Assembly (NCBI GenBank): GCA_012270065.1
Contig: JAAXJB010000092.1
Location: 22,322-86,321 of the forward strand
DNA from: Rubripirellula sp.
GTDB lineage: Bacteria > Planctomycetota > Planctomycetia > Pirellulales > Pirellulaceae
DNA length: 64,000 bases
Direction: 5' to 3'
This document shows positions 4,193 to 16,510 of this stretch, in pieces (position 1 is the first letter of the stretch; each line of letters opens with the position of its first letter). The notes below the pieces were generated by a model, which was given only the letters and a program-made list of their open reading frames with translations, made no database searches and had not been told where the DNA came from. The translations under genes and the position numbers were made by a program.

Positions 4193-5626
4193 TTACGGAT
4201 GCTCTGCAACGATGACGCGGATTTGATCGACTGCAGAACTCGCTGAAAGATCAAGTGACAATGTCCGGCGGTCCTGACTGAGGGTCACATTGTCTCGACC
4301 TGAGTCAGGCCGATCATCCGGGCGGGTTGGCTCAATGCCCCGTCGCGTGTCTCCATAATCACCTAGCTGATGCCCGAGGGTTTCGTCTGTTCTGATGAGC
4401 TGGGAAGTTCCACCAATCAGTCCGAGAATGGGTCGATCAAATGTGATTTGTCCGATGACCCTCGCTCCGTCTGCTTCTTCCCGGGTGAACTCACCAATCG
4501 GATTGAGTTGCAACAGATAACTACGAACCAACTGGCCCGCAGCAATCACCTGTTGATTCTGGCGGCGAACACGAATGTACTGCCCGGGTTTTGTCACATT
4601 GACTTCGAGATCCGATGTCAGCCGAACTTGCGCGCGTTCCGGAAATACGAGAATGTGGTCACTGTCTTCGTATCTCCCCGGAACAAAGGCGGGCCCGGGT
4701 GAAACGAACTTCATCAACCCCGTTGCCTGCAAAACACCGGACGTGACCGGCCATGCATCTTCGTAACGCTCTGTCGAGTAGTCCACGGTATCGATCGTGT
4801 CAGCTTCCGGTCTGGACCGGACGGCGTTGCCTTCGCTGACGAGCTGTGGAGCATCTTGACCGTCAGCAAGACTGACCTCTACTTCTCCCTCAAAAACACA
4901 GACATCCGTTTCACCATTTCCTCCCACCGAAACACCAAAGGCTGTTCCCAGATCAACGACATCCATCGTTGGCGTGATCACTTCAAAACCCACGGCTGAC
5001 TCTGGTATGAATGCAGTGAGTATGCCACTGTTGAGAATTGTTTTATCTGTCGACAAAATCTCGAATTTGGCAGGACCCTGAAGAGTAACCGTGGCACCAT
5101 TGCGGAAATCCAATCGGGCCAAACCAGTCTCCAGATGCAGCTTGCCTAGACCGATCTGGTCTCCCAGTTTTCGTGCATTGCTTTCCCACCTCGCATTGGA
5201 TGTGTACTCAAGTGTGGCAATCGCCGACGCGTTCGCCTCACGGATGGAGTCCGAACCAGACCAATTCAGGAACAGCAACAGCGATGCAGCGGTAGCCAGC
5301 ACTGCCATGGTGACCACCGTGGCGCGCCGCGACGCCTTGAACCGTACCCATTTGAACTGTGACGTTGCACTCGACTTGGAGACAACCTCAGCAGACTCAA
5401 GGTCCGGAGCATCCGTTGGAAGGCTACTTCCAGTTCCAGACATATTTCCTGATTCGTTTGTACGGCCATGTTCATTGATCAACCCGGTCAGCAGACGCAG
5501 ATCATTGAATTGCCTTACACGATCAGGTGAGTTTGCGAGCTCACGATTCAGCACTTCCAGATCAACGCCAGTAATCGCATCTTCCAGATACAACGTGATC
5601 AAACGAAGGAAATCTTCATCATTCAT
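4193..5626 (-). CDS. FecR-domain transmembrane anti-sigma regulator
   Basis: I place the start at 5626, not further upstream, because MNDEDFLRLI there overlaps the sigma-factor stop as ATGA and a GGAG lies about 11 bases before it. The result is a 477-residue protein. The N-terminal cytoplasmic segment (about 1-90) resembles the anti-sigma part of FecR proteins. A single membrane helix lies near 110-130 (AVLATAASLLLFL). The periplasmic FecR domain covers about 165-265 (TGLARLDFRNGATVTLQGPA, VVDLGTAFGVSV). The C-terminal 200 residues form a beta-rich extension. FecR-type proteins hold or transmit signals to their cognate ECF sigma factor, and the adjacent, overlapping sigma gene fits this. The sensed signal is unknown. 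Confidence 0.9.
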   Translation of the reverse strand: MNDEDFLRLITLYLEDAITGVDLEVLNRELANSPDRVRQFNDLRLLTGLINEHGRTNESGNMSGTGSSLPTDAPDLESAEVVSKSSATSQFKWVRFKASRRATVVTMAVLATAASLLLFLNWSGSDSIREANASAIATLEYTSNARWESNARKLGDQIGLGKLHLETGLARLDFRNGATVTLQGPAKFEILSTDKTILNSGILTAFIPESAVGFEVITPTMDVVDLGTAFGVSVGGNGETDVCVFEGEVEVSLADGQDAPQLVSEGNAVRSRPEADTIDTVDYSTERYEDAWPVTSGVLQATGLMKFVSPGPAFVPGRYEDSDHILVFPERAQVRLTSDLEVNVTKPGQYIRVRRQNQQVIAAGQLVRSYLLQLNPIGEFTREEADGARVIGQITFDRPILGLIGGTSQLIRTDETLGHQLGDYGDTRRGIEPTRPDDRPDSGRDNVTLSQDRRTLSLDLSASSAVDQIRVIVAEHP

Positions 5627-6153
5627 GAGAAAGAATCTCCTGGATCGAGTGCTGCCATCTTCTTTTGTATGCACTGCGCCAGCGTGACATAAATGCGCTG
5701 CAAAGCCTTGTACACAGCCTCGGGTTTCCGCCCAAGTTTCTCAGCTACCCGATTGCCGCGCAACCCTTCAAAATAACGCATCCTTATCGTCTGACGCGCA
5801 TTCTCGCTCAATCGATCCAGACACTCGTGCAGTGCATCCGCTCGCAAAGACATGTCAGTGGTGTCACGATGTTCCAGCTCCGCGTCGACAAGATTCAGGA
5901 TCGATTCGTCAAGCAGTGCCACTTGATACTTGCGTTGACGAATCAACTCGTAGCATCGGTTACGTAGCACCTTCCACGACCAATCTCGCAGATGCTGAGG
6001 CCCCTCAAAACTGTCATGGTTCTGAAAAACCAGGGTCAACATGTCCTGATAGGCATCCTCTGACAAGTCGGATTGACGCAGAATCGACCACGCCAAAGCA
6101 ATCTGCTTCGTCCGCTCGGGCATCAGAACTTTGAGGATTTCAGTACGGTCCAT
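5623..6153 (-). CDS. ECF-type RNA polymerase sigma factor
   Basis: This 176-residue protein contains sigma region 2 (about residues 10-75, including a W-S-W-K-V-L-R-N-R-C-Y-E-L-I-R run) and region 4 (about 112-165, with a helix-turn-helix GLRGNRVAEKLGRKPEAVYKALQRI). Its length and lack of regions 1 and 3 match extracytoplasmic-function sigma factors of the planctomycete/verrucomicrobial type. It directs RNA polymerase to a small regulon, probably including its own operon. It is the first gene of the operon and overlaps the FecR gene by four bases, the usual sigma/anti-sigma arrangement. I could not identify a matching promoter by eye. Confidence 0.94.
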   Translation of the reverse strand: MDRTEILKVLMPERTKQIALAWSILRQSDLSEDAYQDMLTLVFQNHDSFEGPQHLRDWSWKVLRNRCYELIRQRKYQVALLDESILNLVDAELEHRDTTDMSLRADALHECLDRLSENARQTIRMRYFEGLRGNRVAEKLGRKPEAVYKALQRIYVTLAQCIQKKMAALDPGDSFS

Positions 6154-6471: not shown

Positions 6472-7698
6472 TCATGGGGCAATCTTGAGCTTGCCAAAAT
6501 GAATGTGTGTTCTCGTCTTGTCAGCCGTTCCACTATCCCACACGCACCGGAAATCGCCCGGCGCGACCTCACACAGGGTTGGATATGAGTTCTTGATTCC
6601 TGCGTGGTAGAACGTTTTTTGTCCACTCCAGTCTCCGCCAGAGGGTTTGATTTTATAGCGCAATGACGTTCGTCCCCCGTTTGGAAAATCTGGCGTTTTG
6701 TCTCGCTGTGCCGGCCCATCGTTGTAGACGTAAATGTGTGTTCCGTTTGTCGAACGACCAAAGAATCCCTTGGATTTGGCATTATGCAAGTCAGGTTCAG
6801 CGCGAGCGATGGACCATGTTTTCCCGCCATCGCTGCTGACACTGGAATATGCTCGTGGAGGGTTGGTGGTGAGATCCGTCCTGTCGTAGTTGGCAGTCCG
6901 CATCACAATCTTCAATTCACCGTCTTCATCACCAGGAGCCAAATTGCCCTCGTGAAGAAACACGCGCGCGTCAGCAGGCTGCGGTATGAAGGATTGCAAT
7001 TTCCATTCCAGCAGGCTTGTGCTGGTCAGAAGAAAGTGATCGCGTGAGCCACGTGGATCAGCAGCCAGTGTGTTTCGGTGCGCCGGCAGAAGAAAATGAG
7101 TCTGTCCGCCGATCATGGTCTTTACTGGTGCAGCGTTCAGAATCAGCGGCCCAGTGTAATGCATGGCCAACTCAACCGCTGTCCATGATCGCCCGTTGTC
7201 AGCCGTGAAGGCTGCCGCCAGCCCGGACTCTTCGCTGTTGCGTTGGGCAATCGAACACCGCATTGCAAAACACCAAATCACAGCTTGCCCAGGGACACGA
7301 TACAAAACCGGGTTGGCGTACGCGAACTGGATCGCTCCCTGACGTCGTGTGTGATCGAATACAGCGACTGGTTCATCCCACGTATCCCCGTCATCTGTTG
7401 AAAGTGTTGCGAAAATATCTCCCATATCTTTCTTTCCATTTCGCATGGCACCGAAAGCAACGAGCAGATGATTTTTTTTGTCTCCCTGAATGATGAATGG
7501 CTGCCAAACGCGCCAAGCCTGCGGATGCTGTTCGACACGCCGGATTGTACGAACGTCTGTCACATCACCCGAATACTCGGGTTCTTCATGCTCGGGTTTT
7601 GGATACTCCGGTTCCTGCCCATTCGCAGAGACCGCCACAAGCAGCAAGGCAATGAAAACGGAGTGGCCAAGATGGAATGGATTTGCGAAAACTGTCAT
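6472..7698 (-). CDS. Secreted sialidase-fold (BNR repeat) protein
   Basis: The protein has 408 residues. A signal peptide ends near residue 28 (ANG|QE), followed by a proline/glutamate-rich stretch (YPKPEHEEPEYSG). Asp-box/BNR repeats of the S-x-D-x-G-x-T-W type are visible as STDDGDTWDE, TADNGRSWTA and SSDGGKTWSI, marking a six-bladed sialidase-type propeller. Such proteins are exo-alpha-sialidases or other glycoside hydrolases or binding proteins; the substrate cannot be fixed from sequence alone. It is the last gene of the operon that begins near 15908 and lies 119 bases after a sulfatase, suggesting joint action on a sulfated glycan. There is no clear ribosome binding site. Confidence 0.85.
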   Translation of the reverse strand: MTVFANPFHLGHSVFIALLLVAVSANGQEPEYPKPEHEEPEYSGDVTDVRTIRRVEQHPQAWRVWQPFIIQGDKKNHLLVAFGAMRNGKKDMGDIFATLSTDDGDTWDEPVAVFDHTRRQGAIQFAYANPVLYRVPGQAVIWCFAMRCSIAQRNSEESGLAAAFTADNGRSWTAVELAMHYTGPLILNAAPVKTMIGGQTHFLLPAHRNTLAADPRGSRDHFLLTSTSLLEWKLQSFIPQPADARVFLHEGNLAPGDEDGELKIVMRTANYDRTDLTTNPPRAYSSVSSDGGKTWSIARAEPDLHNAKSKGFFGRSTNGTHIYVYNDGPAQRDKTPDFPNGGRTSLRYKIKPSGGDWSGQKTFYHAGIKNSYPTLCEVAPGDFRCVWDSGTADKTRTHIHFGKLKIAP

Positions 7699-7817: not shown

Positions 7818-9314
7818 TCACTCACTGACTGCCTCCAGAAAATAGTCGGGATATTTCCATGCATGTTTCTTGCCAATGGACTTCTTCTTTACCGAGCGGA
7901 CTTCTTTCGTCAACTTGCGGAGTTTTTGTGGATCAAGGAGGGGGTCGTTGGTTTCGCGTCGCCACTGATCAAGGCGTTTCTGCAAATCTGACAATACATC
8001 TGCGTAACGTGGGTCTCCAGCAAGATTGCGGAATTCGTGAGGATCTTCCTCCAAGTCATAGAGCTGGTAACGTGGCGGTTTTCGCATCAAAGCATAGGCC
8101 GATCGAACTTCTGAACGGGCGGCTGCAATCACCGCATCGAGGTCCAGATTCGCGGCATGATTCTCCCCACCCTTGTTTGCCTGCAATTTCTCAAGGGTGA
8201 TGTCGTAATCAGGGTGAATTGTATTGGGCAGCAGACTTTCGATGAGTTTGTAGCGATCACCGCGAATACATCGCTGCGGAAAATAGTTCGGTGCGGCTGC
8301 GTGCATATGATATTCGGCGCAATAATGGGTGCGCCATGAGTCAACGCCCGGTTGAAACAGAGGCTGGAGTTTCGCTCCTGGCAACCCCACAACATCAACC
8401 GCTCCTGCTGCATCAAGCAATGTCGGCATCAGATCCAGCGTCGAAACGAGCTCATCACAGATCTGAGGGGTAATGTGCCCGGGCCAACGGATCAACATCG
8501 GAATGCGTAATCCACCCTCGTAGCATGTTCGCTTCCCACGCAGCATGTCAGCCCCGTGGTCCCCGATGTAGATGACGATCGTACTGTCAGATTTCCCTGA
8601 TTGATCAAGTACTGCAAGTAGATCACCAACAAGTGAATCAAGACGACTCATGCAATTGTAATGATCTGCAACCCTCTCGCGAAAAGCTGGTGAGTCGATG
8701 CCCATGTATTCCATTACCTTCACATCTTCTCTGGTCTGCGGCTTATCCGGCAACCCTTCCACCTGCGCGATCCACGGTCGGTGCGCATCCGGATAGTTCA
8801 CGCTGAGAAAAAACGGTTTTTCGCTGGCGTTAATAAACTTCTCTGCCTGCGATGCGTATTCACTCAGCTCAGTCCGTTGAAAGTTGGCACTGTCGATCTC
8901 GTGCATGTCAAATGGAAATGCTGAAGCAGGGTTGATGTGCAACTTGCCGATGATCCCCGTTCGATAGTCAACCTCTTTCAAACTGCGAGGCAAGTTGGGA
9001 GTATCGTCGCGATACAGCCGAAAGCCCCAGGTCGCGAGCCCAATCTGACCATTTTGATGCGGATACAACCCAGTCAAAAAGCTGGCTCGGGACTGACTGC
9101 AACCAGCCTGAGGTACAAACGCTCTGCGAAACAGAATGCCAGTGGCTGCCAACTGGTCGAGATGCGGCGTTCTGGCAAACCGATCGCCATAACAGCCCAA
9201 TTCCGGGCCGTTATCCTCGGACACAATCAACAGTATGTTCGGTTTTGCTTCCGCCAATCGGGCATCAGTTACAAACAGGCATACCAGAATCAGAATTGGT
9301 TTCGCGTATCTCAT
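7818..9314 (-). CDS. Sulfatase with non-canonical C-S-Q-S-R active-site motif
   Basis: I prefer the ATG at 9314 (498 residues) over a GTG at 9353, because the protein then opens directly with a signal peptide (KPILILVCLFVTDARLAEA). The sulfatase core begins with NILLIVSEDNGPELGCYGD. The expected formylglycine site is C72-S-Q-S-R (followed by ASFLTG), with Gln where the consensus has Pro or Ala. A GDHG metal-site segment (IYIGDHGADML) is intact. Overall it resembles heparan N-sulfatase/sulfamidase-like planctomycete sulfatases (the SEDNGP opening). It would hydrolyse sulfate esters or sulfamates outside the cytoplasm. It lies between the unknown paralogues and the sialidase-fold gene. Confidence 0.92.
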   Translation of the reverse strand: MRYAKPILILVCLFVTDARLAEAKPNILLIVSEDNGPELGCYGDRFARTPHLDQLAATGILFRRAFVPQAGCSQSRASFLTGLYPHQNGQIGLATWGFRLYRDDTPNLPRSLKEVDYRTGIIGKLHINPASAFPFDMHEIDSANFQRTELSEYASQAEKFINASEKPFFLSVNYPDAHRPWIAQVEGLPDKPQTREDVKVMEYMGIDSPAFRERVADHYNCMSRLDSLVGDLLAVLDQSGKSDSTIVIYIGDHGADMLRGKRTCYEGGLRIPMLIRWPGHITPQICDELVSTLDLMPTLLDAAGAVDVVGLPGAKLQPLFQPGVDSWRTHYCAEYHMHAAAPNYFPQRCIRGDRYKLIESLLPNTIHPDYDITLEKLQANKGGENHAANLDLDAVIAAARSEVRSAYALMRKPPRYQLYDLEEDPHEFRNLAGDPRYADVLSDLQKRLDQWRRETNDPLLDPQKLRKLTKEVRSVKKKSIGKKHAWKYPDYFLEAVSE

Positions 9315-9410
9315 GTGGCAATGAAACGTGGTTTGGATGGTCGAGACTCCCACAGCATGATCCCGATTTTTACATCAAGACACTGGCAGCACAGTGCCTG
9401 AAGCAGCAAC

Positions 9411-10682
9411 TTAATACTTGGGAAACATTTCCGGTGTCGGAAAACGATGCTTTGGGTCGCTTCCATCACCGATAAATTCTTCACGGGGCAGGTTCACCTG
9501 TGGCCAACTGCTGGGACAAACACGAACCACTCTGGTCGGACGAATCCCCTCAACAATCAGGTCAGTTTCAAAACGGATCTGGATTCCGCTGCTCCCCATC
9601 GGAATATCTCCGTCGACCTTCGTTACCGCGAGAATGCGGCCTCTGGAGGCCATGTGAGAAGGCCCATAGTTACCGCCTGTATGCTTCAGGTTACTTTCAA
9701 CTCCATTCATCATGGCCGAGGTATCTTTCCTGAAGTCGGCGTAGAGTGATTCGTCCATCCCACCGAACAACGTGGCCGTCACGATAGCGCGACCAAACTT
9801 GCCGTATTCAACGGCATCGACCCAGGCAGGCATCCATCTGCTACGGATGAAGGCCTTGTGAGTTTCGGTCTGACTGCGGGCCGCCCGCTGCATTGAAGTC
9901 TCATCCAGCCAGATGTCCGAGACGTGGAATCGCGTGAATACGCCACTCGGTGTGGGCTTCCATGCAATGCCCAGTAGAACTTCCTTGTCTTCAAGCGATG
10001 TCTTTCCGCTGCCTGGCCAGATGCCCGCACCAACCAGATCCTCAACTGCGAGGCACTCACGGCCTCGCCAGATGCGCGTAGCAGCATCAAAGGTCATCGA
10101 TTCCACACTGGCCTTGCCCTCGCTACCGCCCTTGGGTTCGCGACTCGCGAGGATCATTCCCGCGTTGTCTTTGATCTCCAATTCCTTCAGTTTCCAGATT
10201 CTGTTCTCACGCAGGCAGTAGCTGGGTTCGTCTTCGAGAAGCAATACATGGTTTTCAGCCGGGTAAATCCCGGCGCCGCTGTAACCAGAATTTTTCTTCC
10301 GGCTGTCAACCGCAAACACCGGTACTGCAGAGTTCTGCGGATCAGGTGGAAGAAAAGCCCGGATATGGAGGACGGAGTTGAGTGGAATGTCTCGAAGATC
10401 TGCCGGTGCGCCGTGATAACGGATGACACCGTAAGGAAGCATCGCAAAAGGATGCGGCGCATTTCGGAAATAGGTTCCCTGCCCCTGAATGCGGAGACTA
10501 CCGCGACGGTTGGCATGATCAACAAACACCAACTCACCTCGATAGGAGAGCGCTTCTTCCAATGAGGGAAATTCACCCGCCACTGGCCGAAAGGGTTCAT
10601 CCTGAGCGTTGACAGAACCTGCGGTCAACGACATGCCAAGGCATAACGCGGTGCCCCAAAACATGGATTCAAATCGTTTCAT
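9411..10682 (-). CDS. Secreted protein of unknown function, paralogue A
   Basis: I do not recognise this family. It has about 423 residues from the ATG at 10682; an alternative TTG at 10703 would overlap the upstream stop by four bases. A signal peptide ends near VNA|QD. The protein is clearly a tandem paralogue of the next gene: both contain the E-P-F-R-P start, [36 protein letters not shown], the block around [65 protein letters not shown] and the terminal F-P-T-P-x-x-F-P-K-Y. The first half suggests a beta-barrel or OB-like fold, but that is only an impression. Its place inside the DUF1552/sulfatase operon points to a secreted role. Confidence 0.85.
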
Positions 10683-10699
10683 CACTCGATCTCGCGGTG

Positions 10700-11983
10700 T
10701 CAATATTTTGGGAAAATATCAGGCGTCGGAAAACGATCCTCAGGACTATTATTGAACAGGTACTCCTCCCGGGGAATCTGCATCTTGGGCCAGCTTTCTG
10801 GTCTTACACGGACGACTCTGCCAGTACGTATCCCTTCGATGATCAGGTCGGTTTCAAACCGGATTTGGATGCCGCTGCTGCCGACTGATACGTCTCCTGA
10901 TAATCGCGTCACATCAAGGATTGTTCCGTTTGATGCAAGGTGCCCGGGACCATAGTGACCAGCTGCATGCTTCAACGTGTTCTCGGCCCCATTCATTTGT
11001 GCACCGAGGCCCTTACGGAAGTCGCTGTAAAGAGAAGGATCCATCCCACCAAAAAGTGTTGCAGTAACGGTGGCCCGGCCAAACTTGCCATACTCAACTG
11101 CATCAATCCATGCGGGCATCCAGCGGCTGCGGATAAAAGACTTGTGCGTCTCCCTCTGGAACGCCGCCGCTTGCTGGATCGCTTCGTCGTTCAGCCAGAT
11201 ATCCGAAATATGGAATTGCGTGAAAGAACCGCTAAGCCCGTCCCCTGCTGCAGGCTTCCAAGTGATCCCAAGCAGGACAGGCTGGCCGGCAAGTTGTTTC
11301 TTTCCAGCCTTGGGCCAGACTTCTTCAGCAATCAGGTCCGCCACATGGATGCGCTCTCGGCCCCGCCAAATACGAGTCGCAGCATCAAAGGTCAACTCTT
11401 CTGCCGGCTCCTTCGCCTCACCACCGTCTCTCGACTCGCGACTGGCAATGATCTTGCCAACGTTGCCGTCAACTTCCACTTCCTGAAGCTTCCAGACCTT
11501 ATTCTCGCGAAGGCAGTGACTCGGCTCGTCTTCCAATAGCAGCACGTGGTTCTCAGCAGGCGCCGTTCCGGTACCACGATAATGCCCCACATCTTTATCC
11601 TTGTTGTTGACCGGCAACACGGGCACAGTGGAAAGCTTTGGGTCAGGAGGCAGAAAGGCCCGGACATGCATCACGGTACCGAGCGGAATATCTCGCAGCT
11701 CCGCAGGAGCGCCGTGATACCGGATCACACCGTACGGAAGCATGGCAAATGGCTGAGGATCGTTTCGGTAAAACTTTCCCGTCCCCGCCACACGGATGCT
11801 GCCGCGACGGTTGGCATGATCCACAAAGATCAGCTCTCCCCGGTACGCATGTGCACTTTTCAAAGGAGGGAACTTACCCGGCTCGGGACGGAACGGTTCG
11901 TCATCAGCATTGGCGATACCCGTGAGCAGCAAGACACCGGAGTATAACGCCGTGATCCAACATCCAGCTTTGAGAAACGTCAT
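10700..11983 (-). CDS. Secreted protein of unknown function, paralogue B
   Basis: This 427-residue protein has a signal peptide ([13 protein letters not shown]). It is not recognised, but it is a diverged full-length copy of the neighbouring downstream gene, sharing most blocks in the same order with no large gaps. Its ATG overlaps the DUF1552 stop by four bases (ATGA), so it is probably translationally coupled to it. Conserved W, R, D and G residues ([18 protein letters not shown]) suggest a folded enzyme or binding domain, not a repeat protein. No nucleotide-binding or haem motif is visible. Confidence 0.87.
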
Positions 11984-13338
11984 ACGTCGATCACTTTGTT
12001 GCTATCACCAAACGCATCAATTTCTACTCCCATCTTTTGAGCCATCAGCAGCAACAAGTTGCTCATGTGTGCGTCCGCGTTGGCGGGTCGACTGCAAAGC
12101 CCGTAATGCTCACTGGGCTTATCAAGTTGATAACCGCCGAAATGCCCCTGATTGAAGTCGAGATGGCTACCGTGTTTGAGACCGAGATCCGAACCACCAG
12201 CAAGCACGAGCGGAAGGTTGGCGTTCCCGTGGCTATGACCGTAGGACATACCGCTGCCAAAGAGCGCCATTGTCGATCCCAGCAGCGGTTTTCCGTTGAG
12301 ATCTCTGGTCTCTTCAAGCCGTGAAAGGAAGTAGCCGAATTGCTCGATCGCAAACGTGTCGTAATTCGTAAGCTTCTCCATATAGCCTTCATCACCACCG
12401 TGATGACTGAGCTGGTGGCGTGATTCGGTGATGCCAATTTCCGGGATGGCAAAGGCATCGCCCTCACCGCCAAGGCTGAACGTGGCCACACGGGTAACGT
12501 CCGTCTGAAACGCGAGCACCATGAGATCATAAACGGTACGGAAATAGTCGCCCGCCTGCGTTTTTGGAATGTCACGATTGGTGCGTTTACGATCGGCGTC
12601 GGCAATCTCTGGCAAGGGCGTATCGAGCCACTTGTCCGCCCGCCGCGTACGGATCTCTGCTTCACGTACCGAGGTCAGGTACTGGTCGAGGCGTCCTTTG
12701 TCAGCCGCTCCGATCTTCTGCTCAAGCCGACGAACTTCAGCAAGATTGTCATCAAGCACACTTGCTTTACGCCGCAGAGCTCTCCGCTGGGCAGCGATAC
12801 CACCTTTGGGTTCCTCAAACAGAGATGCAAAAATCTCTCTGCAACGGCGCATGGCGGGAAGTTGCACGCCGTCCGCTGTCCAGGCAAGAGATCCCTGCGT
12901 CAGGGCAATCTCCATGGACGGGTAACGCGTGTGTTGCGCCGTCACTTCGGCCATCTTCTGATCCACGGAGATGGAATTCCGTTCCGACGCTCCAATCTTG
13001 CCACCAGTCAACCAGATGTCGATGCAGTTGTGATGGTGTCCGAGGCTTCCTGGATGATGCAGACCACTCACTGGAGTAATTGACTGACGATACTTTTCCA
13101 GTGGCTTCAACGACCGTGAGAATTCATAGTCTTTGCCCGGTGTTGTGACCTGATAATTCAGTGAATGCACTCCATTGGCCAAATAGACAAATGCGCTCCG
13201 CCGCGGAGCTTCCGCATGCTGTTCCGCCGCGTTGAGGGGGACCATGCATTCAAGGAATGGAAGCGAGATGCAAGTTCCCATCGCGCGAAGGGCATGACGT
13301 CGGTCGATCAGCCACGATTGAGTCCGAATGTTGGTCAT
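11980..13338 (-). CDS. DUF1552 family secreted protein
   Basis: The start at 13338 ([21 protein letters not shown]) is chosen because AAGGA lies about eight bases upstream and the protein then begins with a Tat-like leader ([18 protein letters not shown]). That gives 452 residues. Family hallmarks include the [10 protein letters not shown] segment near the N-terminus, [24 protein letters not shown] in the middle, and the C-terminal [24 protein letters not shown] block. DUF1552 proteins in Planctomycetes usually follow a DUF1592/DUF1588 cytochrome gene, as here (53 bases apart). They are exported and their activity is unknown. The stop overlaps the next gene by four bases. Confidence 0.93.
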
Positions 13339-13391: not shown

Positions 13392-15908
13392 TCAACGTTT
13401 TTGGATCAGGTCAGACAGAGCCACTGCGCGAACAATCGATCTGACTCCGTATTGGTTCTTCTTTGCCTGCTCTTGAATTGCTTTGAGATCATCGCGGTCA
13501 TCCACGGTGAGCACACGCCGCAGGGCATAAGTGCAGAGGTGTTCGATGAATGCTCGCGCCACCTTGTCACGATCCTCGATCATCAGTCGTTTGAATTCGA
13601 CAGCACCCGTGAACGGGCGGCCATCCGACATGACTCCGGAAGCATCCACCAATGGATCCTCACCTTTACCCGTCGTGACTTGTTCATGAGTGCGCCACTG
13701 ACCAATGGCATCGTACTGGTCGAATGCCAGGCCCAGCGGATCAATGTTGCGATGACACGCCGCGCAACTCGCGTTTTTGGCATGTGCCTCGATTCTCTGG
13801 CGGATCGTTATTTTGGTTCCCTCAGGAGGAATGGGCTCAATCGGATCGACGTTCGCCGGCGGTGCTGGGGGTGTCCTGTTGAAAATTGTTTCGCTGAGCC
13901 AGACGCCACGATGGACTGGTCGATGACGAGTTCCATCAGACGTCAAGCCAAGCACCGCTCCCATGGTGAGCAGACCACCGCGGTGGTCCTCCGGCTTGAA
14001 CGTGACGCGTTGAAAACCACCTGCCGTCGGCTCGGACAACCCATAAAAATCACACAACCGAGCATTGGCCATCGTCCAGTCGGAATCCAGGAAGCTGTCG
14101 ATAGGCAAATTTCCTTTGAGCATTTCACGGAAGTACTCCACCGGCTCCTGACGCATGCTTGCCTCGAGCCAGTCGTCGTAGACAGGATAAAGTTTCTTGT
14201 CTGGAGGGAACATGCCAACACGATGAAGCTGTAACCACTGACGCGCGAAGTCGTCAATAAAACGGTTGATCCGGTCGTCGTTCAGCATCCGCTCCACTTC
14301 CTGCTCCAACGACTCACCAGCCAGATCACCACTCGAGGCCCGTTTGAAGAGAGCATCGTCCGGCATGGAACTCCACAGAAAATAGGACAGCCGCGAAGCA
14401 AGCTCCCAAGGCGTCAGCCGTTCACGGGCTTCGGGGTCTCCTTGCACCAGGTAGATGAAGTTTCGGGAGGTCAAGACGCTCTGCAAAGCAATGCGATAGG
14501 CGTCACCCGCCTTCTCACCTGCCTCGCGCTCAGCACGATAAGTTTCCAGATAACCATCCAATTCTTCCTGTCTTACCGGTCGACGCCAGGCGCGTTCAGC
14601 AAACCGCCCAAGATGCTCCGCAACTTGTTTGGGAGTTGCATCCTCGGGTGGCAACACACCATCACGCTGGGATATTTCTTCTGCTGTGACCAGCGGCCCT
14701 TCCCACTCGACCCAATCAATGATCACCGTCGAAAAGATGCCATTCCCGTCACCGTCGAACATTTGTGGAGCATTGGGATTGAGCAACAAGGTCTCACTGC
14801 TGTGCGTGAAGATGTATCCACCCCGGCTGGCAAGAGCGTTGCGGAACGCAGCACCACCTCTCCTGTCCACGACATCAGTGGCCACCACGGCGAAATGCAG
14901 CGTGGCGGGCATTTCAAGAAACACTTCAAACTCGTAAACCTGCGGACTGTCTTCCGCCGCCGTGATGTCAAATTCAATGAGTCCATCAACGGTCTCCTCA
15001 CTGGTCCTCTTGCCGATACTAAGATGGGCTGGCTGCCCGCCGGGTGGACGGATGCCACTGGCCTGCAGGCGAACTCTATAAAGACCACTATGCTCGGGAC
15101 CCGTCTTTCCAAACCAGTTGGACGACAACGCGTTCTGGACTCGACCGGGAAACAGGAGATAACGCAGGGGACGTTTGATACCGAACCGGTCCAGTGCCTC
15201 CTGCTGCTCTTTGCCACCGCCATAACGCAACTCGGCTGCGGTCTTCCGGACTTTGCGAGTCTCACTGGAGGTTGCGGGAAAAGCGCGGTCGAGAACTATG
15301 TCTGCCGCGCGGTAGTAACGATCAACATGCGAAGGTGAAAGCGAAAGCTGCGACCCAATGCGTTCATAACCATGCCACAACGTATCTTCGTTCAACTCCC
15401 CTGGCTTGGCCGGATCGTAGCGCACACCCAGCAGATCATAAACCGTATTCTGATACTCTTTTCGACTCAGCCGATAATGTGCGACGGCAGGCCGGGCCGC
15501 CATCCGGGCAGCACGACCCTTCTTGATGAGTGAATTGAGGTTCAGGACAAATTCCGCAAGTTCATTTTGAGTCGGCTCAGGCTGATCTCGCGGAGGCATC
15601 TCGCCGCTATTCACCTTGTCAAGCGCTTCGGACCAATGGTGTGAATCCACACCTGCATTGAAATCACGGGAAAGAAGGTCAAAACGGATATCCCCTTCTT
15701 CCCGCTCGGGTCCATGACAGGAAACACAATGCTTCTGCAAAAACCCCTCAAACGGCTCCGCAGAAAAAGCCGGAACAACGTCAGCATGAAGCGTCAACAG
15801 AACAGAACAGAGACTGACTGCAGCAATCGATTCGATCGGGTGATAACACCTGTTCCGGACGCGAACGAGAATGTGATGGGCACAAGTATGAATCAGATCA
15901 ATCAACAT
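13392..15908 (-). CDS. Planctomycete cytochrome C-like protein (DUF1587/1595/1592/1588/1585)
   Basis: The protein has 838 residues from the ATG at 15908. An uncleaved or late signal region ends near residue 50. An N-terminal PSCyt haem motif H-C-V-S-C-H-G lies near 60-66. DUF1587 covers about 125-190 ([18 protein letters not shown]), DUF1595 about 430-490, DUF1592 about 495-625 ([20 protein letters not shown]), and DUF1588 about 640-735, which contains a second CxxCH motif ([12 protein letters not shown]). DUF1585 covers about 755-835. This modular periplasmic protein is presumed to be a haem-dependent dehydrogenase or electron carrier. It is the first gene of the operon that continues to the sulfatase and sialidase. 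Confidence 0.94.
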
Positions 15909-16510
15909 CACTCGTGGCGTTATTCATTTGGAAAGAAATTCATCCGCTGCAGGCGAATTCAAGCACAGGCTACTCTGGCCCGCGCCGGAAACTGCAACTT
16001 GCAAACTGCACAGCGTTCTGATGCTGGCCTTGAATCCCTCCATGATAATCAATCAGCAAGTTAATATCACGCGTTTGAAAACCCTAAAAAGACAGGCAAT
16101 CGGACCACTCGTGCAGAAACCACTGAAAGCCCGGCTTGCCTCCACTCTGTCAAAACCGGCTCAAACAGAACAGCTCGTACAGCTACCTTCGCCAGGGTTG
16201 GCTGAAAAGAAAACATCCATCGCGGAATGGCCCCTCGATCATTGCCCCGGACTTTTCGAGTCTACTGCCTGTGATTGCGGATGACTGGAGTTTGAATGCA
16301 TCGTTCAAAATGCGACACACGTGCCTGAATCTGGATGCAATGCTGCTGGAACGCGGATATGCTTTTCCATCAGTTTGCCAGATGGGAACCACATACCCCC
16401 AAAGCCAGAACGAGCCTGGATCGGAAATGGAAGTCCCTGATGCTGATACTTCTCTCTGGAATTCTGCCATCCGCATGACCATCAAGCCATACCCGTAACA
16501 CGGAATTCGA
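15909..16510. other. Divergent intergenic region
   Basis: These roughly 600 bases separate the leftward cytochrome operon from the rightward CRTAC1-like gene, so promoters for both should lie here. Short open frames exist on both strands, but none has a start, composition or motif that suggests a real gene. I see no clear hairpin or repeat. Confidence 0.6.

Follow-up and report, generated by a model that had tools for sequence, protein, structure and literature searches.

Gene Content of the Locus

The window, the 64,000-nucleotide stretch of Rubripirellula sp. DNA analysed here, carries a run of six genes on its minus strand. A cytochrome gene is followed by a DUF1552 gene, by two paralogues referred to as A and B (members of a family called X below), and by genes for a sulfatase and a BNR_2 protein. 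Its features are:

13392-15911, minus strand: predicted diheme cytochrome c (PSCyt3/DUF1592 type), 839 aa, with Pfam matches over cut-off
11980-13338 (open frame to 13395), minus strand: DUF1552/HXXSHH protein (PF07586, 6.8e-85)
10700-11983, minus strand: family X copy A, 427 aa, ATG start, Sec-type signal peptide (open reading frame, BLASTP)
10778-11134, minus strand: predicted third barrel of A, residues 284-402, strongest fold match (VIA)
9411-10682 (open frame to 10703), minus strand: family X copy B, 423 aa, Sec-type signal peptide (open reading frame, BLASTP)
7818-9353, minus strand: sulfatase, outside the conserved cassette (PF00884, 3.7e-49)
6472-7698, minus strand: BNR_2/sialidase-fold gene, outside the conserved cassette (PF13088, 6e-19)

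The cytochrome is the first gene of the conserved cassette. In Pfam it matches DUF1587, DUF1592, DUF1588, DUF1585, and DUF1595, its domains being PSCyt1, PSD3, PSD5, PSD4, PSCyt3, and PSD2, and it contains two CXXCH motifs, at residues 62 and 716. The DUF1552 protein scores 285.8 bits against PF07586, for which the cut-off is 30. Its H-x-x-S-H-H motif reads HQLSHH (residues 327-332); among 50 sequences H327 and H331 are invariant, and S330 and H332 are conserved in at least 90%. Together with D299, H389, and H408, which are conserved as well, H327, H331, and H332 are candidates for a putative metal site. By eye, the protein carries a twin-arginine-like leader (RRHALRAMG...).

Open reading frames were called mechanically, as the longest or profile-scoring open frames, and some starts are misplaced. 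The DUF1552 frame opens at a TTG (13395) located 19 codons upstream of the starts of its relatives, which begin at its residue 20. The ATG at 13338 is therefore the likelier start judging from these relatives, and it would leave the cytochrome and DUF1552 genes without overlap. The start of A and the stop of DUF1552 share 4 nt (ATGA); the initial annotation called these genes translationally coupled. For B, the candidates are a TTG at 10703, which would overlap the end of A (TTGA), and an ATG at 10682, which leaves a spacing of 17 nt; the ATG is likelier. Downstream of the operon and on the same strand lie an ECF sigma factor gene (5623-6153) and then a gene for a FecR-like protein (4193-5674), which scores 23.9 bits, slightly below the Pfam cut-off of 24. 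These two are a possible regulator pair.

An Unnamed Family of Secreted Proteins

Proteins A and B had been described from the DNA alone as adjacent full-length paralogues with signal peptides and no recognisable family, and each part of this description holds. Both genes are present on the minus strand, and their products align over the full length with 270 of 428 positions identical (63%, 567 bits by BLASTP), far above chance. Sec-like leaders are visible by eye on both. Across the family, a simple hydrophobicity rule finds a hydrophobic stretch in 72 of 73 members, and an AXA-like site precedes the mature start in 60 of the 73 members with a usable N-terminus.

Profile searches of Pfam, NCBIfam, PHROGs, and PDB sequences returned no convincing match. 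Neither A nor B has a match in Pfam or NCBIfam at E<=1 or in PHROGs at E<=0.1. A Pfam scan of the 96 aligned members of X with a limit of E<=0.5 brought up four families, one member matching each (best E 0.072). Against PDB sequences, A alone gave one hit (E 1.5) and the X profile four (E 0.16-1.3), all taken as chance. The alignment consists of 94 of 97 representatives (179 sequences clustered) plus the two proteins of the window; it excludes L001, which repeats A, as well as L027 and L104 (shuffled domains). At L104:10544-12112 the X domains occur in shuffled order. The alignment shows a sole near-invariant cysteine, Cys157, and the invariant polar residues R64, E151, D152, Q276, and T309; no heme motif is present and no cofactor motif was recognised. 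X thus stands as a genuine family with clear limits and no name, and its members A and B belong to the secreted proteins of Planctomycetota and Verrucomicrobiota.

Family X is found in 22 of 60 genomes comprising the genome of the window and its relatives (protein search), and in 16 of 294 phylum-spread genomes, again with the window's own, where the best six candidates per genome were scored. A genome collection yielded 94 stretches with X, from which 80 loci were kept, titled mainly as Planctomycetota and Verrucomicrobiota; plasmid records gave no match to A. One locus, L095, comes from a metagenome bin whose record is titled Klebsiella pneumoniae; its cassette is of the usual planctomycete/verrucomicrobial type and includes three X genes, and the title should not be trusted.

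The genome of the window encodes four X copies: A, B, one on contig C33, and a distant one on contig C14. The C33 copy (L005:8242-9522, G000:C33:94250-95512) has no DUF1552 gene beside it. The trees put it with the third X gene of L035, the closest relative locus, which makes it resemble a member of an A-B-C array that has moved elsewhere.

Association With One DUF1552 Subfamily

The link to DUF1552 claimed at the outset was borne out by a neighbourhood survey made from both sides. Counts that start from DUF1552 do not presuppose X. Among the 60 genomes (own included), X adjoins all 24 DUF1552 matches of at least 48% identity (at least 442 bits), 23 of these cases being found by protein search and the 24th by profile. 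The DUF1552 match that follows in score has 254 bits, and by eye none of the weaker matches listed for these genomes, with at most 27 scored per genome, lies within 5 kb of X. Among the 294 genomes (own included), where the best five candidates per genome were scored, X lies within about 350 bases of 24 of the 26 DUF1552 matches at E<=1e-90. In the two exceptions (G278:C76 and G117:C364) the contig stops within 430 bases, on the flank expected to carry X. In both genome sets neighbours were matched by eye on the listed rows.

Starting from X, the 80 loci contain 83 X clusters; five begin at the edge of a locus, leaving 78 that can be evaluated. Of these 78, 74 have a DUF1552 gene upstream in the same orientation, a figure made up of 66 clusters assigned by rule, five with overlapping start calls, and three with an inserted stretch. 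The clusters that lack it belong to L084, which has two of them, L104, and L111. Other departures include L146, where X adjoins a DUF1549/DUF1501 pair and no DUF1552, L148, where X accompanies a cytochrome and no DUF1552 is seen, and an orphan broken X fragment in G341:C1.

The genome of the window encodes 58 DUF1552 genes, only two of which adjoin X. Set against the 24/24 and 24/26 adjacency found from the DUF1552 side, this marks X as the property of one DUF1552 subfamily. With high confidence, X is a near-obligate third component of one subfamily of PSCyt3/DUF1592-DUF1552 cassettes.

Sulfatase and Sialidase-Fold Neighbours

The neighbourhood test proposed in the initial annotation covered sulfatases as well, and here the outcome differed: the DUF1552 link was confirmed, the sulfatase link was not. 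The sulfatase and sialidase-fold genes do lie downstream in the window, but their adjacency is not conserved elsewhere. A same-strand sulfatase-like gene is next to X in two of 73 clusters (L071 and L081), as detected by BLASTP with the window sulfatase, from which distant sulfatases may escape; a further one follows X in L150, outside the 73-cluster set. With the window BNR_2 gene as BLASTP query, 77 loci yielded no BNR-like gene. In the closest relative locus, L035, genes A, B, and C are followed by no sulfatase on a 6.5-kb contig. At least 150 sulfatases are encoded in the genome of the window, so that one next door is unsurprising.

Among 65 first or second downstream genes, a set that excludes those already labelled sulfatase, Pfam most often assigns LRR (12 genes), followed by DUF1549/1553 cytochromes (6). 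The 25 families listed, out of 102, do not include Sulfatase, and hence at most two of the 65 genes carry it. The counts of 2/73, 0/77, and at least 150 led us to reject the sulfatase/sialidase operon as a functional clue pointing to glycan processing. The sulfatase and BNR_2 genes are outside the conserved cassette. The usual active-site signature of sulfatases is C-x-P-S-R; in the window sulfatase the motif reads GCSQSRASFLTG, with Q in place of the usual P.

Copy Number and Age of the Paralogues

X clusters contain one to five X genes, counts that include broken frames (L113 amounts to four fragments and L106 to two). A single X gene is present in 36 of 83 clusters, some of them at contig ends, suggesting that a single X can suffice, without the need for A and B together in every case. 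Distant lineages have two X units encoded in a single open frame, as a chain of 717, 751, or 767 aa. Such double-X chains follow DUF1552 in L147 (noted as L027/L147) and L149 and the cytochrome in L148.

Diverged copies kept side by side, a feature that the initial annotation had pointed out, are the rule in tandem loci. The 44 tandem loci contain 100 copies, of which a single one has its neighbour, and not a copy from elsewhere, as its closer relative. Because there are close relatives among these other loci, this result by itself implies only that the copies predate the splits between loci. An A clade is recovered with 26 rows in a 139-row FastTree (SH-like 100) and with 17 rows in a 90-row tree (SH-aLRT 99); it holds both phyla, and 22 of its 26 rows are first or only copies. 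The 90-row tree also contains a B clade of 13 rows (SH-aLRT 99), with nine second and four first copies, and a third clade of nine rows (SH-aLRT 100), made up of the C33 gene of the window's genome plus four each of third copies and last-of-two copies. A clade of last copies has members from two phyla. The third copies of L071, L095, and L114 fall outside the third clade, so array position and clade do not agree everywhere. The 90-row tree came from a quick search with no bootstrap and omits the tandem loci L040, L055, L080, L084, L087, and L100; copies shorter than 360 aa were left out of both trees and of the sibling test.

A recent duplication giving rise to A and B is rejected by the trees together with the sibling test. 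The A/B split is shown to be older than the divergence of the sampled cassettes. When two hand-picked clades of 24 and 23 rows were compared for A/B specificity residues, only Y72F, I212L, A245T, and a four-residue gap separated these clades at the 80% level, too little to suggest two substrates.

Probable Exchange Between Phyla

The window DUF1552 protein shares 81% identity with its counterparts in L093 (Verrucomicrobium sp. BvORR034), L067, and L057, 83% with that in L081, and 80% with that in L096, and X identity at these five loci is 67-71%. RpoB of the same five verrucomicrobial genomes is 46-56% identical to that of the window organism, in two pieces. Within Planctomycetota (L050 and L082), RpoB identity is 87-88% and DUF1552 identity is 91% and 87%. 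The comparison uses one marker, RpoB, for which L094, among the eight genomes, gave no match. A DUF1552 identity of 80-83% where RpoB stands at 46-56% is most simply explained by transfer of the cassette, and from these sequence identities the cassette probably crossed between Planctomycetota and Verrucomicrobiota. The alternative to transfer is an extreme constraint on the cassette.

Predicted Folds

The AlphaFold2 model of X, built from the 96 rows, is mainly beta (pLDDT 90.7, pTM 0.88). Its strands and the separate matches of its domains predict three small beta barrels. The whole-chain fold has no Foldseek match at E<=0.001 in the PDB or among viral models. Barrel 3 (about residues 283-402) resembles an RNA-helicase 1B barrel (8ftm_B; Z 9.2, rmsd 3.2, 95 aligned) and a flavin-reductase-type barrel (6l2u_A; Z 8.0, rmsd 3.1, 93 aligned) in VIA; barrels 1 and 2 resemble OB folds weakly (Z 5.0 and 5.6). 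The VIA comparison barely probed regions beyond residues 283-399. The absence of a family from its list does not count against that family. Single barrels of X show a weak likeness to OB-fold/split-barrel proteins (SSB, cold-shock, Sen1/SETX 1B, flavin reductase), from which X differs in having no whole-chain match and no detectable sequence relation. Barrels are common shapes, and the matches give no function. No internal repeat among the three barrels was detected by hhalign (probabilities below 1%), which is weak evidence as the profiles are shallow.

The AlphaFold2 model of the DUF1552 protein has a pLDDT of 82.8; the DUF1552 alignment covers 49 of 99 proteins. Its best match is an NPP-type phosphodiesterase (5gz5_A; Z 17.0, rmsd 3.4, 240 residues), and the 50 VIA rows listed all belong by title to the alkaline phosphatase superfamily (Z 15.5-17.0). 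The DUF1552 protein is therefore predicted to have an alkaline-phosphatase/sulfatase fold, the modelled likeness to the alkaline phosphatase/sulfatase/NPP superfamily extending over residues 61-471. It differs from members of this superfamily in sequence, with an identity of 8-14% in the matched rows, and it may be inactive. Searches against PDB sequences gave three hits for DUF1552 (E about 0.5). For the cytochrome, whose alignment holds 21 of 23 proteins chosen from 70 genes, they gave one hit at 0.89 in one search and two, at 0.02 and 0.088, in a profile search. All were taken as chance.

A Possible Role for the Cassette

Tentatively, the cassette may be an exported redox complex with X units as its binding or assembly part, a reading that we consider plausible but short of probable. 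Its electron-transfer character is suggested by Cbp2D, a DUF1587-bearing protein of which one domain can reduce LPMOs. That the cassette products form a physical complex is, on balance, what we infer, although gene linkage can reflect a shared pathway instead. Under the proposed mechanism, the products of the cytochrome, DUF1552, A, and B genes would assemble into one exported complex. The X units, whether combined into A:B hetero-oligomers or fused in one double-X chain, would provide the platform for binding or assembly and keep a substrate in contact with the exported DUF1552 subunit, a possible hydrolase-fold partner, while the diheme cytochrome would move electrons to or from the reaction. 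A two-unit X assembly is favoured by the diverged copies kept together and by the double-X chains. A recalcitrant polymer as the substrate is a guess by analogy with the literature on related cytochromes. The more elaborate picture of a horizontally exchanged, exported redox machine, in which pairs of triple-barrel X subunits (A:B or a double-X chain) would be a new kind of substrate-binding scaffold around an alkaline-phosphatase-fold protein connected to a diheme cytochrome, is doubtful.

Alternatively, X could assist the other components without remaining among them. It is rather unlikely that X proteins are chaperones or maturation factors, acting in heme attachment or folding of the cytochrome or DUF1552 protein and not lasting as subunits. 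The strict pairing with one subfamily only, the variable copy number (1-5), and the lack of any enzyme signature seen in X would suit such factors. General maturation is improbable when 56 of the 58 DUF1552 genes in the genome of the window lack X, and several diverged copies kept together suit subunits better. A catalytic X is unlikely too. Here, the barrels would be a flavin- or metal-binding catalytic unit with DUF1552 and the cytochrome as electron partners, consistent with the likeness of barrel 3 to flavin-reductase-type and riboflavin-synthase barrels (Z about 6-8) and with the five invariant polar residues R64, E151, D152, Q276, and T309. These matches, however, are weak (identity below 18%) and rank below RNA-helicase barrels, norovirus P domains occur in the same match list, sharing a barrel shows no function, and no known cofactor motif was seen.

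The distribution of the genes bears on two further explanations. X could serve as binding proteins in the degradation of a polysaccharide, for example a sulfated glycan, for which the sulfatase and the sialidase-fold enzyme would be catalytic. This agrees with the position of the sulfatase and BNR genes in the window, directly downstream on the same strand, with the sulfatase-like genes after X in L071, L081, and L150, and with the frequent proximity of sulfatases to PSCyt genes in some genomes, as reported in PMC5615132. It is nonetheless distinctly unlikely in view of the 2/73 clusters with a sulfatase-like neighbour, the at least 150 sulfatases of the genome, and the prevalence of LRR and DUF1549/1553 genes downstream, with Sulfatase in at most two of the 65 genes scanned. 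It is highly improbable that the X copies arose by ordinary tandem duplication within single lineages and have no role in common. Single-X clusters are indeed common (36/83), but neighbours are nearest relatives in just one of 100 copies, the A clade and the last-copy clade each span two phyla, and double-X chains exist. The exported redox complex with X as its binding or assembly part remains the best of these readings.

Comparison With Known Systems

Among characterised proteins, Cbp2D of Cellvibrio japonicus bears on the cytochrome. According to PMC8981238, loss of the Cbp2D and Cbp2E genes slowed growth on cellulose, and one Cbp2D cytochrome domain can reduce LPMOs. By the same account, Cbp2D shares with the window cytochrome a DUF1587 domain and two CXXCH motifs. 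Unlike Cbp2D, the window cytochrome has no carbohydrate-binding or YceI-like domain (Pfam, E<=1), and CjX183, the solved Cbp2D domain (7B21), was not among the hits of its profile search at E<=0.1.

The literature on DUF1552, DUF1592, and PSCyt-type domains describes the first two components. In the main text of section 13 of PMC5615132, a third gene like X goes unmentioned. This section reports that sulfatase genes are often near PSCyt genes in some genomes. Nor does such a gene appear in the main-text passages covered of other work on these domains, including PMC2754498, PMC7789669, and PMC6004670.

The first two genes of the window share their Pfam domains with PSCyt3/DUF1592-DUF1552 cassettes. 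The window-type subfamily is distinguished from them by one to five X genes, which 56 of the 58 DUF1552 genes in its own genome lack. What is new is that one subfamily of a known but functionally dark cassette is singled out by a near-obligate third partner, and this X-bearing subfamily combines unusually high sequence conservation with signs of transfer between phyla. With a defined gene set and one clear deletion to make, the function of these cassettes thus becomes testable.
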